From: Hyperoplus lanceolatus
Taxonomy: Eukaryota; Chordata; Actinopteri; Uranoscopiformes; Ammodytidae
Reading direction: 5' to 3'
DNA length: 64,000 nucleotides
NCBI GenBank assembly: GCA_026929865.2
Contig: CM049409.1
Location: 15,839,452 to 15,903,451, forward strand
Below the pieces are notes generated by a model that had not been told where the DNA came from, ran no database searches, and saw only the letters and a program-made list of their open reading frames with translations. Below are positions 1,687-49,894 of the stretch, one piece after another (position 1 is the stretch's first letter; each line of letters begins with the position of its first letter). The position numbers and the translations under genes were made by a program.

Positions 1687-2366
1687 GGAAAAAGGGGTGA
1701 GGATGCCAGGAAGACAGGAAGAGATGAAACTGAGAAAATGAGTAGGAGCAGACAGGAGAAGAGTGAGGGAGCCTTGTTTTCACTGATAAGCACACATCAA
1801 AGCTGTCTTGGCTGTCAAGATCAAAGACTTTACTTCACGGCGGAGTTGACCTTTTGGAGGTATCGTATGTCCAGTTGGGCCACAGGGAATCAGCAATCAG
1901 TGATAAGGGGATGAGCTAAACCAAGTCGGGTGTAACGCGGAGTTCTTTCGGACAGCATACAGGCAGATGGGTCAAGAGCTAAGAAATGATGTTGATACAG
2001 TATGACAAGTTTCTTTTATCTTTGGGTTTTCTCCTGACCCCCCCTCATTTTCTGGTGTCTAAGGAAACAAAACCATTGCAGAAAAGTCCCAAGAGGAAAC
2101 CACTCAAACATGTTTTTTTTTTGTATTGTTGTTACATTTCATACTTGCCAGGTTCTCTCCAGGTGTGAAAATCATGTCTCCTCCTATGTAGTATGCCCCC
2201 CCACACACACACACACACACAAACACACGCACACTTATGTTGACATATGGTTTACATCTAAAGGCTTTACCACAAAACAAACATAGGTCCAACAGACATG
2301 TGCGTTTGGAATTTGTATGGGATTTTGCTACATTTTTGTGATCATAAGGAATAAAAAAAAAAACTA

Positions 2367-2774
2367 CCCTGCATTCCAAATCGCATACTTTCTATTATTT
2401 AGTATGGTAGAAAAAATATTTAGGATGTTCCGATTCTTCTGGCAAGATTTAGGATGGTTAGAAAGACTCAGATGTCTACTACATCCGGCCGAGATTTTTA
2501 TTGTTGAAATAAAGCATCCTATTTGGGCGATTCTGACCCATATCCAGTGCGTACCTGAAGTGACGTCACATCAACGGAGCCTCCATATGAAAACAAACGG
2601 GGATGCGACGGATATAAAAGCAAGAGGCAAGATCAAGGCGCAATGTTATGATGAAATAAATAAGTAAAAGTATGTCTCAATTGTAGCATACTGCATCCTA
2701 ACTAGATTATTTTTATCGTCAGATGTAGTATGTAGAATAGAAAAAAGGAAGAGTATGCGATTTGGAACGCAGGG
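2367..2774. mobile_element. MITE, about 408 bp, with 20+ bp inverted ends
   Basis: The left end CCCTGCATTCCAAATCGCAT and the complement of the right end, CCCTGCGTTCCAAATCGCAT, differ at a single base. Inner copies of a GTATG/CATAC-type motif lie near both ends. There is no transposase, so this is a non-autonomous element. No clean target duplication is visible at the boundaries read here, so the superfamily is left open. Confidence 0.8.
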
Positions 2775-3110
2775 TGAGTGTTTTTTTTCCCCTCGTATAA
2801 TTACACTTTCAATTCTGTTCATGACATTAGCAAGTTCACACTTTTAACTAATGACTATAAGTGGTTGTTTAAGATCAAGTTTTTGTAATTGGCCCTTGAT
2901 TCATTTGTCAAGTTGGGTACTGCTGCTGATGCTGACAATCAATCAGTGATGGGAAGTCGATCAATCAACCGATGTCTGTGGGCAGCAGTCTCATTCTCCA
3001 ATACCCATTAATTATTTGACATTATAACACAATACATGAGATTGATTTTATTGATTAGTGCCTTTGATCAGAATCTTGACTGACTATTTTAAAAAGTACA
3101 TTTTCAAGAA

Positions 3111-3236
3111 GTGTGTGTGTGTGTGTGTTCGGTGTGTGTGGAAGAAGGGGCACAGTAAGGGTATAAGGATGGAGAGAGATGAGAAGAAGGGAATGGAGAC
3201 GACTTGAGGTGTGTGTGTGTGTGTGTGTGTGTGTGT
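3111..3236. repeat. Dispersed duplication, copy B, plus GT microsatellite
   Basis: Positions 3111-3209 repeat the block at 1587-1686. Immediately after the shared GACTTGAGG the sequence runs into a second GT tract (3210-3236), followed again by TTCGGTGTGTGTG. The head motif of the duplicated unit therefore occurs twice here, which suggests slippage or a partial third copy. Confidence 0.8.
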
Positions 3237-4163
3237 TCGGTGTGTGTGCTGTATGTGAGCGACACAGAGCTGGAGAGGATATGAAAAGGGCTTCAAATTA
3301 CATTACATTACAACATCTATGTAATGCTTTGGAAATGTTGTCAGAGGGTCAGATAATGATAAGCAAACACACATCTGTGCCCCTCTGAAGCTTGTTGATA
3401 TGAGGATTTAACCACAAAAGACATGATACTGATAGACCAGTTAAAAGAGCTGTCCTCTTGCTCAAATAAGCCGCTTTCACACCATGCAAGATTTATTACA
3501 ATTCCAAAAATAAACCAAACTAGAAATGGAGCTGAGATGGTGTTATTGGAAGTGATAGAGGTCAGAGGGAGAGATAGACACAAGGCCGAAAGACTTTGGA
3601 GGATTAGAAGAAATAAACAGCAGTATTTCCCCCATGTTTTATGAGGGAAAGGACAACCAGGCAAGAAAATCACTCATCCTAAAAGTATGGGTCTTATCTT
3701 CATGGCAACTATTGAGAAACTTGCTTTGGTTCAAGTTCAAGTGGCATCTATCAAAAGCAGCTCCAAATGGTTTACATTTTCAATACAGCTATAGAGGGTG
3801 TTTTTTGTGTCAGGGCTAATGGTCCAGTCCAAAGACTTTCAGGTGGCAATAACAAGTCAGGAACCATAATCATTTGTTAACTGAAATTATTTAAAGGGGA
3901 CATAATATGCAAAATCTCGGTTTTAAAGGTGTATTTCCAAGGTCTACTAGAAAAGGTTTTCTTGGTTTATTGTTCAAAAAACCCAATCGTTTTCTACCAT
4001 TTCCCATTTCTTCATCGCCTTTTCCAGCCTCTTCTGCCCTCTATCTCAAAAGGTAGATTTTGACAGCTTACCCCCCTTCGCAAGAATACTAGTCTGCTCT
4101 GACTGGTCAGATCTACATGGGCGTGCATGCACCGCCCTGCTCATTTACTCTATACCTACCTAC

Positions 4164-4543
4164 ATGGGCATGGCACACGCCCAGCTGTCAGTTTTGTTTA
4201 CTTTTGGCCAATGCAGCATGGAGACCAATGTAAACATGTTTAGCTTCATTTCTACCACAAATATCGGCACACTAACCAGTTCTAAACTAAAAGATGTACA
4301 ACTGAACCTGTTCAGACAGGAGTCTGAGCTGAAAACTGTGAAAATGGCATCAAGATTTCTGATTTCCCTGACATTATCCTCAGGTAAATACTGTTTAATT
4401 ATGTCACAGTCAATAACATAATTTGAGCTAAGTAGTTATGCAAAAACTCTCTAAACTGGTAACATACACCCTGTTTTACGTTTGTCTTTACAGGTCTGTG
4501 GAATGATCTACAGCCCAGTGGAGTGAAAAAGCTTTGGTTGTGA
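4164..4543 (+). CDS. Two-exon reading frame inside the TTAA element
   Basis: Exon 1 (4164-4383) ends at TCCTCAG followed by the donor GTAAAT. Exon 2 (4494-4543) follows the acceptor TTTACAG. The join keeps phase, one base being carried over, and adds GLWNDLQPSGVKKLWL before a TGA. An AATAAA poly(A) signal lies about 215 bp downstream at 4757. The alternative start METNVNMF at 4218 is equally plausible. The product, about 89 residues, is rich in Ser, Thr, Leu and Lys, has no motif I recognise, and could be the C-terminal part of a longer spliced protein. It lies tail to tail with the minus-strand frame. What supports it is the matching splice phase and the poly(A) signal, not homology. Confidence 0.4.
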
Positions 4544-4756
4544 ACCGATACTGAGTTGACATGTAAAAATGTACAGTAACCATAATGGAAAAGAATGTAT
4601 CCTGAATCATGTCAAGATTCACTGGAAAGGCATTATCTTTTGTAAAATGTATGGTCGAAATAATCATGCTTTAGGTTTGTCAGAGCTGCAAATTATCTGA
4701 CAACATTTCAATATCTAGTAGATAATGTATCATTTGCATTGTGATCACTCATTCAT

Positions 4757-4762
4757 AATAAA
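4757..4762 (+). other. Poly(A) signal AATAAA
   Basis: A canonical hexamer downstream of the plus-strand spliced frame, with a TG-rich tract (ATTGTGTTGC) about 20 bp further on, as expected for a cleavage site. Confidence 0.45.
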
Positions 4763-4925
4763 GTTTTACCGTTAAAAAATGTATTGTGTTGCTTACTGTC
4801 ACTGTTTGCTACCTGTAGTAAAGGATTACTTGAAACTCACATTTTCATCTCGCTGAAGATTTTCTCTGATAAAACAGTATCATTACATTTTAAAAAGACC
4901 AAAAACATCCTTAAAAATAAAGCAG

Positions 4926-4931
4926 TTTATT
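4926..4931 (-). other. Poly(A) signal AATAAA on the minus strand
   Basis: TTTATT on the plus strand reads AATAAA on the minus strand, about 60 bp past the minus-strand stop codon at 4992. It faces the plus-strand signal at 4757, so the two frames converge on about 160 bp. Confidence 0.45.
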
Positions 4932-4991
4932 CATAGCCAGTGGAATGAAAATATGAAGTGTACATATCAAACAGAAGCAAAGCCATAACTT

Positions 4992-5984
4992 TTATGTAAC
5001 TGTCCAGTTGTTGTTGGGCCCTGAAGAAGACCACCTGTCCCCCCCAGTGAACACATCCTCCTCTGAAGGAACGGATAGTGTGACGGTCTTGGTGGCTCTG
5101 TCCGGCTCCATCAGGTCACTCAGACACCTGTAAAACATGGCACATTCAATGTTACATCATGTAGCCTAGCTGACATGTATAGGCCTACATCATACATCTG
5201 TTATGGCAAAGCTACAACAAATTCAGTACAGCCCTGGCTCGATAAGCAACAAGTTCTGAGTGATACTGTGTGCTTTTTGAAATATAATGGACAGGAAACA
5301 AACACCAGCAGAGACAACTTACAGTATTCCTGTATATGTGTACATTACACTGGAGATCATGTAATAGGCCTACTGCTGCTTGTACTACAGGTTTATTTTG
5401 CTTAAAAAAAACGGCACTTTGTCACGCATTCTCCCGCACAAACGTAGTCTTTGTCCCACATCTGGTGAATTGGGATCTGGTCACCCTAACTACACACTGT
5501 CCGCAGACTTATTGCGGTGTGTACTTGAGCTATACAATCAGACAGCTAGCAGGTAGCAGGATGAAGCTATTAAAAAAATACTCTTCAGTTTCCAACACAC
5601 CCTACAGTTTCACCGTCTGTTTTTCACTCAGGGGCTGTCACGGCAGGACTAACGTGAGCTCACAAAAGAGCCAAATAACAGTCACAGCAAAAGACCCACA
5701 GCTCTAACCGTTAGCATAAAGCTAACGGTAAAGCTAGCGGGCGCTAATGCTAACGACTAAACCCCGCATTCTCTCATTTCAGTCGGTGTTGGTTATTATA
5801 GGAGGGATAAAATAAAGCACATTACAGACATTGAACTAACAAACGGACATAATTATTTTTAAAATAGGACTACTTACATTTCGGACGGATGGTGTCTCTC
5901 AGTCTTCCTGGCACAGTCTCCTCCACACTCCAGTAAAAAGGCTTTGATCACACTAACAGATTGCAAACCTTTGCTGGAGATAGC
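4992..5984 (-). CDS. Two-exon minus-strand reading frame (C-terminal part) inside the TTAA element
   Basis: An exon at 5984-5878 is bounded by the acceptor TTTTAATAG and a perfect donor GTAAGT. The next exon, 5127-4992, follows the acceptor TTTTACAG. The interrupted codon AT|G rejoins in frame, giving about 80 residues that end at TAA (4994-4992). The sequence has a Cys-Gly-Gly-Asp-Cys segment followed by KTERHHPSE in the first exon, and an acidic/Ser-rich tail in the second. The phase match across a 750-bp intron and the poly(A) signal 60 bp on make chance unlikely. The 5' end was not found; candidate upstream exons would lie between 5990 and 6380. I do not recognise the family, and a transposase C-terminus or a captured host gene are both possible. 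Confidence 0.5.
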
Positions 5985-7611
5985 CTATTAAAAAATGAAG
6001 TAAATCCATTCAGCCCTAGTGTGCTTCGAGGCTGGGGTGTGATGGTAGCTTGAGGTTGAGCTCACACTGCAGCTTGCTTCTCCTCTGTTGTTGCATGAGC
6101 GAGTGGAGGCTCAGCCAGGTGTGTGTGGTTACCAACGGGGCGTCTTGATTTGCCAATCAACTGCCGAGTTTCTGGTGAGCTTTCCCGTTGGAGTATTTAT
6201 GATAATGAAAACCGACCGATTTTGTCATCAGTCGGTGTTTTTTGGAAGAAACCTTCAAATCCCCCCTTTTTACGAAATAAATGTCCCAGAAGAAACTGAC
6301 ATATTTGTCTTTTTGAAGCTTGTGTGTGCTGGTAGGGACGCCAATAACCTAAACAGTGTGCCCAAACACCGGCAATGTTTGGTTTTTCATAGTATGTCCC
6401 CTTTAATCCCCGATTGCGATATAAACACTCCATATGATTGTTCAATGTATGGAAAATGTGATTATAGATTATACCATATGTATTCTAAATACAAAGGTTA
6501 TGGAGATAGCTGTGCACAAGTTTTTGAAGTCAAAACTTCTTATAAAAGATATTTCCCCCCAGTGCTTTTGAATACATGTTGCAACATGTTACAGACAACA
6601 TTCCCTTTTATCACTTGTATTACTAATAGTGAACACTTGACGTAGAACTTCAGTTAAAAATGTAGTAAAATTTAAAAAAAAAAAGGTTAAATAATGGCCA
6701 TCAACAAAAAGAGAACATATTGTTAATTGACCGATTTGATTAGTTTAACTTGTTTGTAGAAATAAGTAAATCAAACTCAACTTGTGACAAATTCTAACCG
6801 GCAACTTGATTTACTTGGAAGAAGAAGTCCACCTATACTGACTTATTGAGTGTGCTGTTCATAGTGTGAAATTAATTCTACAGACTTTGTTTGTTCTTTA
6901 AAGTGAACAGTATGATGTTATGGTGGTGTAACAGTTCTACCTTTTAAGGGCAGCTGGTTACATTTGTTTTGGTTAAAGATTGCTCATACTCCTTCAGGCC
7001 TTACCAATCAAAAGAAGACAACTATGAACACACAAACTGACAGATGTGAATTGGCCTCAGAAAACAGATGAGGGTTTAAGTTAACAATGTGAAAAAACTG
7101 CTTAAAAAATATCATGAAAAAATAATGAAAAGCATAAAACAATATGGCCCCCACAGAAGGAACAGGATTGTGAATGATCAAGGAATGTGGAGTAACAGCC
7201 ACTGAATAGGAATGGTAATTGCCTCAGGAGCACGTACAATATTAATCTTATAATAATATGACTGTACAATGACTGGTCTCTAGACAATAACAGTATGGTG
7301 GGTGAATCATTGTTTTAAAATGAAAGGAGTTTTAGTGGAGCTTAATCTCTCAGTCAGGGGTTTATTTAGCCTATTCTGCTGCCTGCAGGTCTAGTGTAGG
7401 TCAGCTGTTCAGAGAGGCAGTCAGAGCACTGGTGGGAATCAAGTGTTTTCCTTGAAGGATCTTCCAGTAGTCTGACAAGATTGCAGTAGTATCTCCCTAT
7501 TGGCTGTAGGTCCCTGCATCTTCAAATCTTGTTAAAACTGATTTGAAGCTGGAAATATGTGTAAAAGTATGCAACTATGTAGTAAAATAGTGAGCCAAAG
7601 GGAATGACAAT

Positions 7612-10750: not shown

Positions 10751-13653
10751 ATGGCGGCCACTTCCAAAATAAAGAAAGTCTACCATACTAGTGACGTTAT
10801 TGCCATGGTGCAGGACCCCTTCCATACTGGTAAGTGATAAGGTTTACTATAATAAAGGCTAGAATTTGAATGTTGCATGGTTATTTAGTCTGTTTATTTA
10901 GCATTTGAGTCAGCTAGCACCATGAAGCTAGCAGTTACTGATAATTAGCAAAGAGTGGAATGGCTCCAGAATTTGTGGCTGCAATGAATATTTTCAGAAA
11001 CTTCAACTTTTGCTATGTGGGAGAAGCTACTTTCTCAGCATAGCTTTTCAAACTACCAATGAATTTACACTGGAAGAAGTTAAACTACAGCATAGCTATA
11101 CTAGGGATAAATCTAGTTTGGTTAACTAAAGCTACTTACAAAGAAGTAGATCAAACTACTTTGTAAAAAAATATATTTGATATGAAATTATAACCAAATA
11201 TGGTAAAAATGTACAATAAGGTTTAGGGTTGGGGGTTAATCAGCATTAACAGTAAGTTTATGTTTTACTACCATGCTTATTCACTTAATGCTTAGTTCAT
11301 GTTTAGTATTTTAGTTAAGCAGTTAAGTTAAAGGTTTGGTAAATGAATGTTTGTTGACAAATCACTTTGTCAACATCTGCTACCCGGTCCATACTGTATG
11401 AGCACTGAAACAAATCTTGTTAATACACAGGCTAGGGAATTTGAACAAAGACGACCCGCTTACCCCACCTTTAATGCTAAGTTGATGCTTATAAAACATT
11501 AACTTAGCTTTGATTAATGCTTATTAAGCATTAAATAACCATTAATTAATGCACCCTTATTGTGAAGTGTTACCTAACACATAATACAAAATCACACACC
11601 AGCAAAAAATGCCATTGATTGAGTGTTGTTTTCCCTCTTTGGTAGGAGATGAACTTGACTCTTCTGAAACTCATCAGGCCCCATCCAATGGATATGAAAA
11701 TGAGACCGTCGTTGAGATGTAGGAAAATGCACCATGCCAAGACTCCTTTTCAGATGGAGCAGACAATACTTTCAACACTCCAATTGATGATGCTGAAGAA
11801 ATCGAGCAGACACGTCCACATCTTGAAGAAGACTCATCTGCTGACTCATCTGTTGATGATGATATCGCCGATCCAGACTATAAACCACCTGTTGATGAGT
11901 CCTCTGCCCCTGAAAATTAAGACAGCCTTAACAATACTGTCCAAAGGAAAATAAATAAACGCCTCAGTCCAGGAACATGGAAGCAAAATGAATCCAAGGA
12001 GAAACGTCTCAAAGGAATGCCATACAACCTCAAAGGTGGCAAAGAACAAAGTGCAAAGGCTATGGGTTCTCCCTGTAACTCGACGTTCTGTCAACGAATC
12101 TCAACTCGAGGCTGCCAATCCGTTACAGAAGAGCAGCGACAGTGGATATTTCAGAAAGTTTGGTCAATGAACTCCTGGGAAGAACGTCAGTTATACATCA
12201 CCACTTTGGTCACAAAGGTTGGCATAAAGCAAAGGAAAGTTGCTGGAGGATCCCGACGCAGTGTATCATTTTCCTACCAACTAAAGCAGTTGTAAGGTGT
12301 GTAAGTCACTCTTTTGCTCTAGAATTGGTGTCCCTGAAAGAACCATTACACACTGGCTGAACGAAGACACCATCAATCACAAAGAACAAGCAGCAGCCCC
12401 ACCATCTAAATCCGGACCTAAGAGTGGTAAGAATGCAAAGCTGGAAACTTGTGTCACAGATTTCCTTAAGGACTGGTTGAAGGACCTGCCCACTGTTGAT
12501 TCACACTACTGCAGACACACTGCAACCTACAAAAACCAGAAGTTCCTTCACCCTGGCCAAACCCTCTCCCAATTACGTAGAGAATATGTACAGATGGCTG
12601 CAACTGCTGAAATGAGGGCAGTTGGGATACAACATTTCACAGATGTGTTCAATGAAGAAAACTATTCTGTATTCATACCGCGAAAAGATCAGTGTGATGT
12701 TTGTGTTTCATTCAAGCATGGGAATATCATTAAGGTTGAGTATGATGCACATGTCACCAATAAAGATGAAGCAAGGCAAGATAAATCCCACAACAAGGCT
12801 TCTGCAAACAATGAGAAGTCCGTTTGGACAATGGACTTGCTGCTGTCTCCAAAAACCCAAGCCAGCAGCATGTATTACGAAACGAAACTACAGATCCATA
12901 ACTTTACCCTCTTCAACTTGGAATCAAACGAAGGCTACTGCTATACTTGGGACGAATCAGAGGGTGGCCTGAATAGTGAGGTCTTCGCACATTTACAATA
13001 TCGCCATTTTGAAGGTGTGATCAAAGACCATCCAGAAATAAAGGAGATAATAGTGTGGAGTGATGGCTGTGGTTATCAGAACAGAAATGCAACTGTGGCA
13101 AATGCATACTCTGAGCTTGCCAGGAATAATGGGGTACTAAGAACACAGAAGTACCTTGTTGCAGGGCACACACAAATGGAGTGCGACAGCATGCATAGTA
13201 CCATTGAACGCAAAATAGTCGTGGATATCTTCACCCACAGAGACTATGTAATCATACTCCAGATGGCAAGAATCCGACCATGTCAAGATGCTCAAGCATG
13301 ATGAATTCCCGAGTCTGAATGATTCTTACTTCTTGAGCATCAGACCAGGCAAGAAAGCTGGAAAGCCGACTGTGCATGATCTGCGGGCCCTTCAGTTTAG
13401 CAGCGATGGCAAGGTCCATTTCAAGCTGTCCTTTTCAGAGAACACTGCATGGGAAGCACTGCCACAGAGGATACAGGTGCCAAAAGAGCCGATGACATGG
13501 ATAAGAGTGTTTGCATGTGCTCTGCCAATCAAGGAGAGAAAGTTCCAGGACCTTCAGTCTATGAAACATGTCATGCCGACCGAGTGGCATCCCTTCTTCG
13601 ACAACTTACCTCATCAATGGGCATCAGTCAAAATAACTGAGAATAAATGTTAA
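10751..13653 (+). pseudogene. Decayed DDE-type transposase of the 4.9 kb element
   Basis: Exon 1 (10751-10829) starts ATGGCGGCC, encodes MAATSKIKKVYHTSD and ends at a GTAAGT donor. Exon 2 starts at 11646 after TTTGGTAG in matching phase. The frame is broken by an in-frame TAG (about 11718), a TAA (about 11916), a one-base shift near 12285-12295 and another near 13270-13285. Conserved-looking blocks in the main 12297-13301 segment (residues counted there) are SHYCR at 69-73, DQCDVC at 131-136, WTMD at 177-180, YTWDE near 216, WSDGC..QNRN at 254-263 and GHTQMECDS at 290-298. These give candidate catalytic Asp180, Asp256 and Glu295. I have the impression of similar proteins in insects, Hydra and fish but could not check this. 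The N-terminal 270 residues are acidic. The copy is inactive. Confidence 0.75.
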
Positions 13654-27627: not shown

Positions 27628-27689
27628 CCATCGAGAAGCAGAGCTCAAACTGCTGAGATACGGCCAAACCCAGAGTTTCTCTTACAAGG

Positions 27690-28232
27690 TTGCTGCCCTT
27701 AAGGCACATAAGCCTGTACCGCCTGGCCAGTCTTGCTCCAGAATGGGATCCTACTGCAGGGTTGATCCGAGTTGATGGCAGGCTGCGTAGACTGGAATAC
27801 GCCAAGCCTGAAGACATCCATCCCATCGTCCTGGACTCACGATACCCAGGAATGAAGCTCCTGATCAAGAGGCGCAGCGTTGTCTCAAGCGGTCTATGTG
27901 CCGGCTGCACTGGGGCAGCGACGGCTGCGTCACCGCCAGAACCTGGTGGACCAGTTCTGGATCAACTTTGCACGCAATACCTAACTACTCTTCAGACACA
28001 CCAGAAGCAGCAGAGACCTTCAGAGAACTTGGCTGTGGACTCCATCGTCATGATAGTCGATCCACAACTTCCCAGAGCTCAGTGGCCGGTGGGAAAAGTC
28101 ACGAAGACTGTGCTTAGCCAAGACGGATGTGTCAGAGTAGCAGAAGTCCTAGTCAAGGGCAAAGTCTACACAAGACCTGTTGCCCGCCTGATTCAGCTAC
28201 CGGCTCTCGGAGCCGACGAAAAGGACACTTGA
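27690..28232 (+). pseudogene. BEL/Pao pol remnant (integrase flanks)
   Basis: The open frame begins with LAPEWDPTAGLIRVDGRLRR and then HPIVLDSRYPGMKLLIKR, the conserved segment just before the zinc-binding part of BEL/Pao integrases. It then jumps to the C-terminal domain, with MIVDPQLPRAQWPVGKVTKT and YTRPVARLIQLP, and stops with TGA. The zinc finger and DDE core are missing, so integrase activity is impossible although the frame is open. The C-terminal domain is complete to its end. The short middle stretch is out of register with the family and marks the deletion join. Confidence 0.8.
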
Positions 28233-40757: not shown

Positions 40758-42211
40758 CCAATAATCCATTCCACCTCACAGGTGTGCCACATCAAAATGC
40801 TGATCTGACATCATGATTAGTGCACAGGTGTGCCTTAGACTGTCCACAATAAAAGGCCACTCTGAAATGTGCATTTTTTTGCTTTATTGGGGGTCTGGGG
40901 ACTCAGAACCAGTCAGTACCATTTGCCTCATGCAGTGCAACACATCTTCTTCACATAGAGTTTATCAGATTGTCAATTGTGGCATGTGGAATGTTGGTCC
41001 ACTCCTCTTCAATGGTTGTGCGAAGTTGCTGGATATTAGTGGGAAGTGGTGCACGCTGTCGTATACGCCGGTCAAGCACATCCCAAACATGCTCAATGGT
41101 TGACATGTCCGGTGAGTATGCTGGCCATGCAAGAACTGGGACATTTTCAGCTTCCAAGAATTGTGTACAGATCCTTGCAACATGGGGCCGTGCATTATCT
41201 TGCTGAAACGAACGGTGATGTTCATGGATGTATGGCACAACAATGGGCCTCAGGATCTCATCACGGTATCTCTGTGCATTCAAAATGCCATCAATAAAAT
41301 GCACCTGTGTTCTTCGTCCATAACAGATGCCTGCCCATACCATAACCCCACCACCACCATGGGCCACTCGATCCACAACATTGACATCAGCAAAGCGCTC
41401 ACCCACACGACGCCACACACGCTGTCTTCCATCTGCCCTGAACAATGTAAACCGAGATTCATCCATGAAGAGAACACCTCTCTAACGTGCCAGACGCCAT
41501 CGAATGTGAGCATTTGCCCACTCAAGTCTGTTACGGCGACGAGCTGGAGTCAGGTCAAGACCCCGATGAGGACGACGAGCATGCAGTTGAGCTTCCCTGA
41601 GACGGTTTCTGACAGTTTGTGCAGAAATTGTTTGGTTATGCAAACCAATTGTTCCAGCAGCTGTCTCAGTGGCTGGTCTCAGACGATCTTGGAGGTGAAC
41701 CTGCTGGATGTGGAGGTCCTGGGCTGGTGTGGTTACACGTGGTCTGCGGTTGTGAGGCCGGTTGGATGTACTGCCATATTCTCTGAAACGCCTTTGGAGA
41801 CGGCTTATGGTGGAGAAATGAACATTCAATGCACGAGCAACAGATCTGGTTGACATTCCTGCTGTCAGCATGCCAATTGCACGCTCCCTCAATGCTTGTG
41901 GCATCTGTGGCATTTTGCTGTGAGACAAAACTGCACATTTCAGGGTGGCCTTTTATTGTGGACAGTCTAAGGCACACCTGTGCACTAATCATGATGTCAG
42001 ATCAGCATCTTGATGTGGCACGCCTGTGAGGAGGAATGGATTATCTCAGCAAAGCAGAAGTGCTCACTATCACACATTTAGACAGATTTGTGAACAATGT
42101 TTGAGAGAAATGGTAATATTGTTTATCTGGAATGAATTTTAGATCTTTAAGTCCATCTCATGAAAAATGGGAGCAAAAACCAAAGTGTTGCGTTTATATT
42201 TTTGTTGAGTG
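40758..42211 (-). mobile_element. Tc1-like transposon, left end truncated
   Basis: The right end reaches the terminal TTGTTGAGTG at 42211, followed by TA. The terminal arms are long and inverted: ACAGGTGTGCCTTAGACTGT at 40825 has its complement near 41965. The outer 180 bp of the right arm (about 42031-42211) have no partner on the left, where the match stops near 40758. The left terminus has therefore been lost. The minus strand carries one transposase gene. Confidence 0.9.
40951..41928 (-). pseudogene. Tc1-type transposase with two nonsense codons
   Basis: The frame runs from ATG at 41928 through a helix-turn-helix half (MSTRSVARALNVHFSTISRL) and a second DNA-binding half with RRPRVTTPAQD. 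The catalytic domain has MDESRFTLFRADG (first Asp), QQDNARPHVAR (second Asp) and SPDMSTIEHVWDVLDRR (Glu). A TAG at 41484-41482, where the reading frame elsewhere in the family has Trp, cuts it after RWRLAR. A TGA right after NLINSM ends it about 18 residues early. No frameshift is seen between, so this is a recently inactivated copy. Confidence 0.92.
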
Positions 42212-47821: not shown

Positions 47822-48536
47822 CAGTGTTGCCAACTTAGCGATTTTGTCGCTATAATTAGCTACTTTTCAGCCCCCCCTGGCGACTTTTTTTTCAAAACAA
47901 CGACAAGCGACAAATCTAGCTTTTTTTTCTGGTGTAATTGGAGACTTTTTCGCCGAAGCAAGTATCACTTTTAACACTTCTCAACGAGCAGCGGGAGCCT
48001 CCCGGCCCGTCCCCCGTAACAGAGCACTGACAGACGGCCCGGTCCTCATGCAGCAGCCCCTCCCAGCTGCGGTCAGAGCAGTAGATACACCTCTCCGCTC
48101 GTGTTCCGTTAGCATCACTATTAGCAGTTAGCAGCTTTTCCCACCTCTTCTACAGTCTACGAGTAGTGCAATTCAAAATATTATGCAGTGCTTTTTTAAA
48201 CCATGAGCATGTATGATTACTGCTAGACTTAAAGAGGACCTATGATGCTTTTTGACTTTTATGACCTATAAACGTTGTTATGATGATTCATAGTCATGCT
48301 TAACCATACTAAATTATCAAATAATGACTTACATGCATTTCGACATATTCCCTGCTGACCGTCTGGGGTGTCTGTGCAGAGCACTAAACACTATTCTAGC
48401 CAGTCGAGAAGTCACGTCTTCAAAGCGGTCTATCCTTTCATAATTTGTGACGTCGCATAAAACTTTGTGACGTCTCCACGCGGATGTTTCCATGTATGGT
48501 AATGCTGTTACTTCCCTGTTCGCGTCTGCCTCGCGC

Positions 48537-49416
48537 CCTTATTTATTTATTTATTTATTATTCTTTCGGACAATTCCACACAATACACAATTTTCTCTTG
48601 AAAATATTCATACATCATACTTTGTGTTGTCCGAAGGGAGACGGTAGGCCAGATAAGCGTTTCTCTTGGTTAGATTTTCACTCATTCCAATTTGTTCGCC
48701 TTTAAGCTTCCTGCCTTGACTGAGCAAATTTATCTTATGCTTTCTACTCACGAATTTCAGAATGACAGCACGCTTTTTGGCTAAATTTCCCTTCGGGAGA
48801 AGAAAACAGGAATCCACGTTCTCCAGATCCAGACTAATGCCTTTGCTTTTCAGGAACATTTCAACCTGGTTTTCCACCGAAACATACCCTGTATCGCCCT
48901 CTTCATCTCCACTCACGGCAGTTGCATACGACCTTGGTTTAATAGTAATTCCAGTCAGTATTACATCTCTGTTTTTTGCTTGTTGATCCTGTTCATCAAT
49001 TTTATCTCCAAGCTCTTTCAAGAGCTGATCTTTATTCACATTGACGGCATGAAGTTCCTTCAATTCGATCATCAGTGGCTTCAGACCAGCAGCAATTTTC
49101 TCTTTGATTTTTACATCAAAACGCCCCATCCATTCTTCCATAATTCCAGCCAGCTCAGCCTTCCGCTGTGCTCGCTCCGTCTCCCTCTCACTTTTTATTT
49201 CTCTCTTCAACTCTGCCAACATTCCTTTCTTCAAGTCTGCCAACTGTTTTTTCATTTCTTCGGCAAAGCCTTTGTCCTCTTCCTTATCAGTGTTTTTTCC
49301 TTTTTTGGACATCTCCAGAGATTTTTAGAGATTTTCAGAATCTGAATTCTCCGCTGCTCTCAGTAATAGCTGTTCACCCTCGACAAGCCGGAAGTGAAAA
49401 GGATTATAGGTCCATG
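48537..49416 (-). mobile_element. ORF1-only LINE insertion, innermost of the nest
   Basis: On the minus strand a 5' leader of about 100 bp precedes an ORF1-like gene, then comes a short 3' part ending in an (AAAT)n-type tail (plus strand ATTTATTTATTT, 48539-48561). CTCGCGC occurs at 48530-48536 next to the tail and at 49417-49423 next to the 5' end, a plausible 7-bp target duplication. ORF2 (endonuclease and reverse transcriptase) is wholly absent, so the unit resembles the half-L1 (HAL1) arrangement known in mammals. Confidence 0.65.
48608..49312 (-). CDS. L1-type ORF1 protein, 234 codons
   Basis: The frame is open from ATG (49312) to TGA (48608). Residues 1-15 are Lys/Asp/Glu-rich. Residues 16-112 are strongly charged with heptad-like Leu/Ile spacing, a coiled coil expected to trimerise. 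Residues 115-200 have NRDVILTGI, then a helix QVEMFLKSKG, then KKRAVILKFVSRKHKINLL, the RNP-type strands of an RRM. From 200 the segment RKLKGEQIGMSENLTKRNA matches the C-terminal domain of L1-like ORF1 proteins. Known role: RNA-binding chaperone of the LINE particle. After the TGA the same frame continues about 18 codons into the tail, so the stop may be a CpG-type mutation that trims the end. This is the longest non-repetitive intact frame in the nest. Confidence 0.75.
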   Translation of the reverse strand: MSKKGKNTDKEEDKGFAEEMKKQLADLKKGMLAELKREIKSERETERAQRKAELAGIMEEWMGRFDVKIKEKIAAGLKPLMIELKELHAVNVNKDQLLKELGDKIDEQDQQAKNRDVILTGITIKPRSYATAVSGDEEGDTGYVSVENQVEMFLKSKGISLDLENVDSCFLLPKGNLAKKRAVILKFVSRKHKINLLSQGRKLKGEQIGMSENLTKRNAYLAYRLPSDNTKYDV

Positions 49417-49894
49417 CTCGCGCTTCCCGCCACTGAAAGTGTTCCGGAAGGAAGGTAACCAATCACAACGGAGTGGGGTTTGCAGGAGGGGGGGGAGGGG
49501 AGCGGAGATGGCCGAAGCACAGGCGGAGGGAGCCGAAGCACACACACTCAAGTGTTGACAGGATGTGCTGGATCGCCAAAATAAGAGAAAGAGCTTCCCG
49601 AAAATCTACATAGTTTTTTGTGATGTGATCCGTGTCAGGTTGCTCTATAGAAGTGTAAAACAAGAAATTAAGACCAGAAAAGTAGCATAATAGGTCCTCT
49701 TTAACATTACCACGTTGGTTGTTTATGCGATTGTCACGTTCATAACACTAGAACCTCATCTATTCAAATATTACTGTATAAAACCCTGTCTACAAATATG
49801 CAAATTAGGCGATGATGTCATCTGGCGACTTCTAGCGACTTTTTGGACAGCCAATAGCCACTTTCCTTACTGAAGAGTTGGCAACACTGCGTGT

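Follow-up and report, generated by a model that had tools for sequence, protein, structure and literature searches.

The element and its genomic copies

The window analysed here is the whole of a 64,000-nucleotide stretch from the genome of Hyperoplus lanceolatus (assembly GCA_026929865.2, contig CM049409.1, positions 15,839,452 to 15,903,451), and coordinates below are counted from its first letter unless tied to another locus. It contains a transposable element of 2508 bp, at 3895-6402 between TTAA sites, which bears the signals of two spliced units converging from opposite strands. A sequence-only reading had recognised this TTAA element and proposed that its two spliced frames might be an undescribed Kolobok-type gene pair or a captured host gene. 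The element is confirmed and its Kolobok-type character supported; as we set out here, it is probably a copy of a young non-autonomous family whose two-gene signals persist with no conserved protein.

The target site duplication lies at 3891-3894 on the left, where TTAA is present in 39 of 40 genomic copies (the exception, L045, reads CTAA), and at 6403-6406 on the right, where it is seen both in the sequence and in the copies. End comparison and copy alignment place the left terminal inverted repeat (TIR), AGGGGACATAATATGCAAAA, at 3895-3914 on the plus strand, with a T at 3905 in the copy consensus, and the right TIR at 6383-6402 on the minus strand. The inverted ends of the window element read TTAAAGGGGACATA(A/C)TATG, and its 24-nt arms, TTAA included, are 92% complementary. 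The window copy and the 37 others with both ends aligned all have AGGGG ... CCCCT termini, and 37 of these 38 are flanked by TTAA on both sides; in L042 and L043 the right end is missing.

These copies come from a genome of 806,742,258 bases, in which a DNA search with the element gave at least 42 matches, the best 40 of 1,472 first-look candidates having been scored. Together with the window copy, 39 fetched places make up a set of 40 young copies. Three of them, L045-L047, are split, and only their larger pieces were aligned. The 40 copies diverge by 0.12-1.73% from their own consensus, most by only about 0.5%. L042 and L043 have common flanks, perhaps because a single insertion was duplicated together with its surroundings, so the set represents at most 39 insertions. 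The end pattern TTAAAGGGGACATANTATG occurs exactly at 858 ends genome-wide (420 forward, 438 reverse) and not at all in the reversed control. Positions were taken for the first 100 of these ends, all on contigs C1 and C2, where 37 facing pairs less than 25 kb apart were counted among the matches listed: 21 of 2,300-2,530 bases, three shorter and 13 longer. Of these 37 pairs, five fall into a longer class of 2,989-3,270 bp, which could be a less deleted subfamily. The family has been mobile recently, in that its many near-identical copies, with intact ends and at TTAA sites, point to recent spread.

Two convergent, putatively spliced units

A sister element, 79-84% alike across three aligned pieces, was found adjoining one of the copies, and a search with it gave at least 48 matches that are 82-100% alike to the sister (best 40 of 1,086 candidates scored), of which 14 were fetched. 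The alignment used below has 17 rows: subfamily A, represented by the window copy, L009 and L044, and 14 sister rows, collectively B, comprising L048 and 13 of the 14 fetched sister copies (L075 excluded). Counts on single columns set aside what is foreign in L069 (its 5' part) and in L074 (its 3' part). The sister subfamilies have the same ends and the same layout as the subfamily of the window.

On the plus strand, the stretch upstream of the ATG (4111-4217) is well conserved, with 0.15 distinct substitutions per site where the two introns have 0.32-0.36, and is probably a promoter; we take the GC-box-like and CCAAT-like words within it to be promoter motifs. Exon 1 (4218-4383) is a frame of 55 codons plus one base that begins with an ATG at 4218-4220, which corrects the start previously given, and it reaches the junction open in 15 of the 17 copies, the exceptions being L063, which is frameshifted, and L068, in which a stop codon closely precedes the junction. 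The intron-like segment (4384-4493) has a GTAAAT donor at 4384 in all 17 copies and a TTACAG acceptor ending at 4493, the AG of which is present in 16. Exon 2 (4494-4543) reads LWNDLQPSGVKKLWL up to a stop at 4541-4543, so that the spliced frame of the window copy encodes 71 amino acids; this exon 2 frame is restricted to the window's subfamily, and the DNA of the exon is itself conserved, at 0.14 substitutions per site. An AATAAA signal stands at 4757-4762 in 16 of the 17 copies.

The minus-strand unit presumably has its 5' part, judging from position, in the right subterminal region (5985-6382); 5985-6402 has 0.325 distinct substitutions per site and no special conservation. Exon 1 (5878-5984), which ends at 5878, contains 35 open codons and no start codon, the first ATG of the frame arising across the splice (AT before the junction, G after it) and leaving 45 codons. 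The intron-like segment (5128-5877) has a GTAAGT donor at 5877-5872 in 17 of 17 copies and a TTACAG acceptor ending at 5128 in 16, and exon 2 (4992-5127) runs to a stop at 4994-4992. The AATAAA of this unit, at 4931-4926 (16 of 17 copies), faces that of the plus unit, with 163 bp between the two. Splice sites, stops and facing poly(A) signals were all as the sequence-only reading had described them; a minus frame with its start in the first exon is the part that failed. As a separate observation, the region of minus exon 2 (4992-5127) shows the highest variability among the regions compared in young copies (0.97% vs 0.24-0.61%), and at four of its sites variants are common to 4-8 copies.

Signals kept and frames lost

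Both frames look healthy when only young copies are considered: with identical splicing, 38 of 40 retain an intact 71-amino-acid plus frame and 35 of 39 an intact 80-codon minus frame, the exon being absent from one copy. These counts favour the view that an undescribed Kolobok gene pair encodes two genuine small proteins in these frames, as does the rarity by chance of frames of such quality on both strands. Pairs of opposite-strand frames, of at least 71 and at least 45 amino acids and each followed by an AATAAA, occurred in none of 141 other window tiles and in one of 300 dinucleotide shuffles, whereas one strand by itself often yielded a frame of at least 71 amino acids (17 of the 141 tiles and 13 of the 300 shuffles). 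The scan is a rough guide, having used loose splice rules of our own that were set after the finding had been seen, and its best frames within the element were an 89-amino-acid plus frame, with the same exons and an earlier ATG, and a minus frame different from the one previously described.

Young copies would, however, retain any frame, because most have diverged so little, and the comparison across subfamilies is the better test: there the signals persist and the frames do not. The plus exon 2 frame is present in all three A rows and in none of the 14 B rows, which have a stop directly after the junction or earlier. The B consensus at this junction is GGT TAA, so the exon 2 peptide does not exist in B. 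Relative to B, subfamily A lacks four bases at the junction, most simply through a loss in A that would have opened the frame. The 80-codon spliced minus frame is found in two of three A rows (it is broken in L044) and in none of the 14 B rows; in L068, where the minus acceptor is deleted, an open frame continues past the deletion to a tail that is similar. Other copies thus lack the frames while their splice sites remain.

Codon changes tell a similar story. In plus exon 1, synonymous to nonsynonymous changes number 4:13 between subfamilies and, as distinct changes, 9:19 within B, against 183:477 weighted sites, so that they look neutral; the young copies give dN/dS values of 1.08 (plus frame) and 2.09 (minus frame). 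Small proteins, one of which would have to do without a start codon in its first exon, are therefore most unlikely, and the proposal of a protein-coding gene pair appears largely refuted by the sister copies.

A Kolobok-type element without a transposase

Kojima and Bao (2022, PMC9587614) give a TTAA target and 5'-RR ends as distinguishing Kolobok from piggyBac, which likewise duplicates TTAA. The element combines a TTAA duplication with termini of the form 5'-RR ... YY-3', as AGGGG ... CCCCT, and it also carries the AGGRR motif adjoining TTAA (TTAA-AGGGG) that marks the Xenopus T2-MITE (Hikosaka and Konishi 2018, PMC6004289). The shared TTAA duplication would speak for a piggyBac-type element; its ends begin with AG, on which ground we rejected that identity and hold it to be very improbable. 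Among the six subfamilies from Xenopus listed in PMC6004289 (Table 5), the termini are closest by eye to those of XKol A5 of Xenopus tropicalis, whose ends AGGGGAACTATCATGA and AGGGGATCTATCATGA each match 12 of 16 terminal bases of the element's AGGGGACATATTATGC; XKol A5 differs in being 10,282 bp long and probably autonomous in that source. The Kolobok-type assignment is thus supported by the ends and the target site.

The longest stop-to-stop stretch within the element is 156 codons, no DDD/E transposase is encoded and none of the four frames tested has a Pfam match up to E 1, so the element is at most a non-autonomous Kolobok member. It resembles in this the non-autonomous T2-MITE, presumed to belong to Kolobok, whose families, according to PMC6004289, include recent homogeneous copies with a transposase presumed to act in trans. 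Those MITEs are called short, however, while the present family measures 2.3-2.5 kb, and its two facing units have retained their splice sites and AATAAA signals.

Introns and poly(A) signals of this kind are host-gene-like, and capture of a host gene fragment or pair by a TTAA transposon was the other origin proposed by the sequence-only reading. There is no Pfam or Rfam match up to E 1 and no credible match in the PDB, fish proteomes having been outside the search: the minus frame has no PDB match up to E 10, and the best match of the plus frame, MID51 (E 0.073), was set aside as being at chance level. The two units, moreover, lie in the same layout between the ends in both aligned subfamilies, and we give capture next to no credence. 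A known RNA gene was likewise rejected on the Rfam result. Scans of viral contigs with the end pattern and both frames gave either no match or pattern matches without a relative. A literature search yielded no paper combining TTAAAGG with Kolobok, and for five end words only the 10-mer AGGGGACATA was present among the matches listed.

Kol0 two-gene elements in the same genome

Kol0 Koloboks encode a transposase and KolX (PMC9587614). This genome has at least 111 matches to the KolX-like domain PF20478, with 150 of 210 candidates scored, and 32 to a stretch of Kol0 transposase, with all 52 candidates scored; the latter we grouped by hand into 21 loci. A PF20478 match lies within 7 kb of 14 of the 21 loci, in a pairing check that used 73 of the 111 PF20478 places, and the two genes are convergent in all 14; this consistent convergence fits the view of KolX as part of the transposon. 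The element shares with the Kol0 lineage its TTAA target and its RR ends, and its convergent units with facing AATAAA signals are laid out in a way analogous to the convergent two-gene plan. It differs in lacking a transposase and, by Pfam in the frames tested, a KolX/P2RX7_C domain, and its sequence is not clearly similar to that of the Kol0 loci read.

At locus L076, a 622-codon open frame resembling a Kolobok transposase (2260-4125, plus strand), which matches a Kol0 transposase at 26% identity, faces a KolX/P2RX7_C frame (5153-5701, minus strand). It is a possible source of transposase for the family of the window. L076 and L077 each contain one unpaired TTAAAGTGGACAT, and no TIRs were found at five Kol0 loci under our own rules. 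A further Kolobok-like transposase match, at 26% identity, lies on the minus strand of contig C4 (12440239-12440733) within an open frame of 1,952 codons, possibly a domesticated or fused gene.

Other features of the window

A second TTAA element lies at 48229-49704, with ends TTAAAGAGGACCTATGATGC and TTAAAGAGGACCTATTATGC. On its minus strand it contains a 238-codon open frame that has no Pfam match and that we take to look like LINE ORF1; an end similar to that of this element also occurs in L048 at 1078. At 11921-13650 (plus strand), open frames of 124, 338 and 133 codons resemble a transposase or a domesticated transposon protein, the 338-codon piece having no Pfam match. A Tc1/mariner-type transposase piece lies at 40954-41481 on the minus strand (DDE_3, E 1.7e-16), and an open frame at 27657-28229 on the plus strand matches DUF5641 (E 1.9e-16).

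Discussion

Taken together, these findings make it probable that the element is one copy of a young and abundant non-autonomous family of the Kolobok superfamily, bearing the signals of two genes and no conserved protein, mobilised in trans and derived from a gutted two-gene ancestor. A Kolobok transposase produced from another locus would cut and reinsert it by way of its ends and its TTAA target, and the element would make no protein of its own. What it would have retained are the signals of the two convergent units, namely the plus ATG, the splice sites and the facing poly(A) signals, presumably with a promoter near each end that may be a relic or still active. The simplest origin would be an ancestor built like the Kol0 Koloboks, with transposase and KolX genes facing each other, from which the coding middle was lost; the gutted form of 2.3-2.5 kb would then have spread before the subfamilies split, and the two frames first described would be accidents of the young subfamily's sequence. 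We infer this descent from a Kol0-like element by analogy. Most likely, the element is an ordinary, tidy passenger, moving with borrowed enzymes.

Several results weigh against this account. No autonomous parent with the element's ends was found among the long TIR pairs and the Kol0 and KolX loci read. On C1 and C2, 21 positions match KolX or the transposase, and none falls inside any of the 37 listed TIR pairs; no fetched KolX locus has the element's ends, though ten are only about 3.4 kb long. The 13 pairs above 2.53 kb on these contigs were read in two cases, L047 in whole and a 5.9-kb pair over 2 kb, both of which are ordinary copies split by other DNA; the remaining eleven include the five of 2.99-3.27 kb. 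Between the element and the Kol0 loci nothing is common beyond weak short matches, and the convergent plan that they share is best regarded as an analogy rather than demonstrated homology. A strict test of signal retention, run first, found two of seven signal hexamers fully invariant (p 0.27). With up to one deviating row allowed, a threshold picked after the strict test had failed, six of six chosen hexamers pass against 31.7% of all hexamers (p 0.001), or six of seven (p 0.005) when the plus acceptor hexamer, initially omitted and in its commonest form in 11 of 17 rows, is counted as failing. Finally, two features of plus exon 1 run counter to our reading: three of its four indels across the 17 copies keep the frame, which also speaks for a small protein, and it has changed less than average, with 0.229 changes per site between subfamilies against 0.32-0.36 in introns and, in the young set, just 12 changes outside CpG over 6,480 cells (0.19% vs 0.46% overall).

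Mutability may explain part of this low rate, since the private mutations of fresh copies show it too, although the correlation over 44 windows is weak (Spearman 0.26, p 0.09). The same consideration bears on another explanation, in which the units yield two non-coding spliced transcripts with facing 3' ends that are useful to the transposon, for instance in the timing of expression or in recruiting or hiding from silencing. Conservation at the level of nucleotides rather than codons, in the stretch before the plus ATG, in plus exon 2 and in the splice and poly(A) signals, speaks for such transcripts. No Rfam match accompanies them and the low divergence of plus exon 1 points in part to lower mutability, so that we consider functional transcripts unlikely. 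It is a slightly longer shot that the two facing, spliced, non-protein units, kept through some 16-21% subfamily divergence, aid the spread of the transposon through their RNAs or through convergent transcription itself.

On the account that we favour, that of a gutted passenger mobilised in trans, the window adds a young and homogeneous Kolobok-type family. It also illustrates that convincing spliced frames may arise by accident in a young repeat, a question that an alignment of diverged subfamilies can settle.

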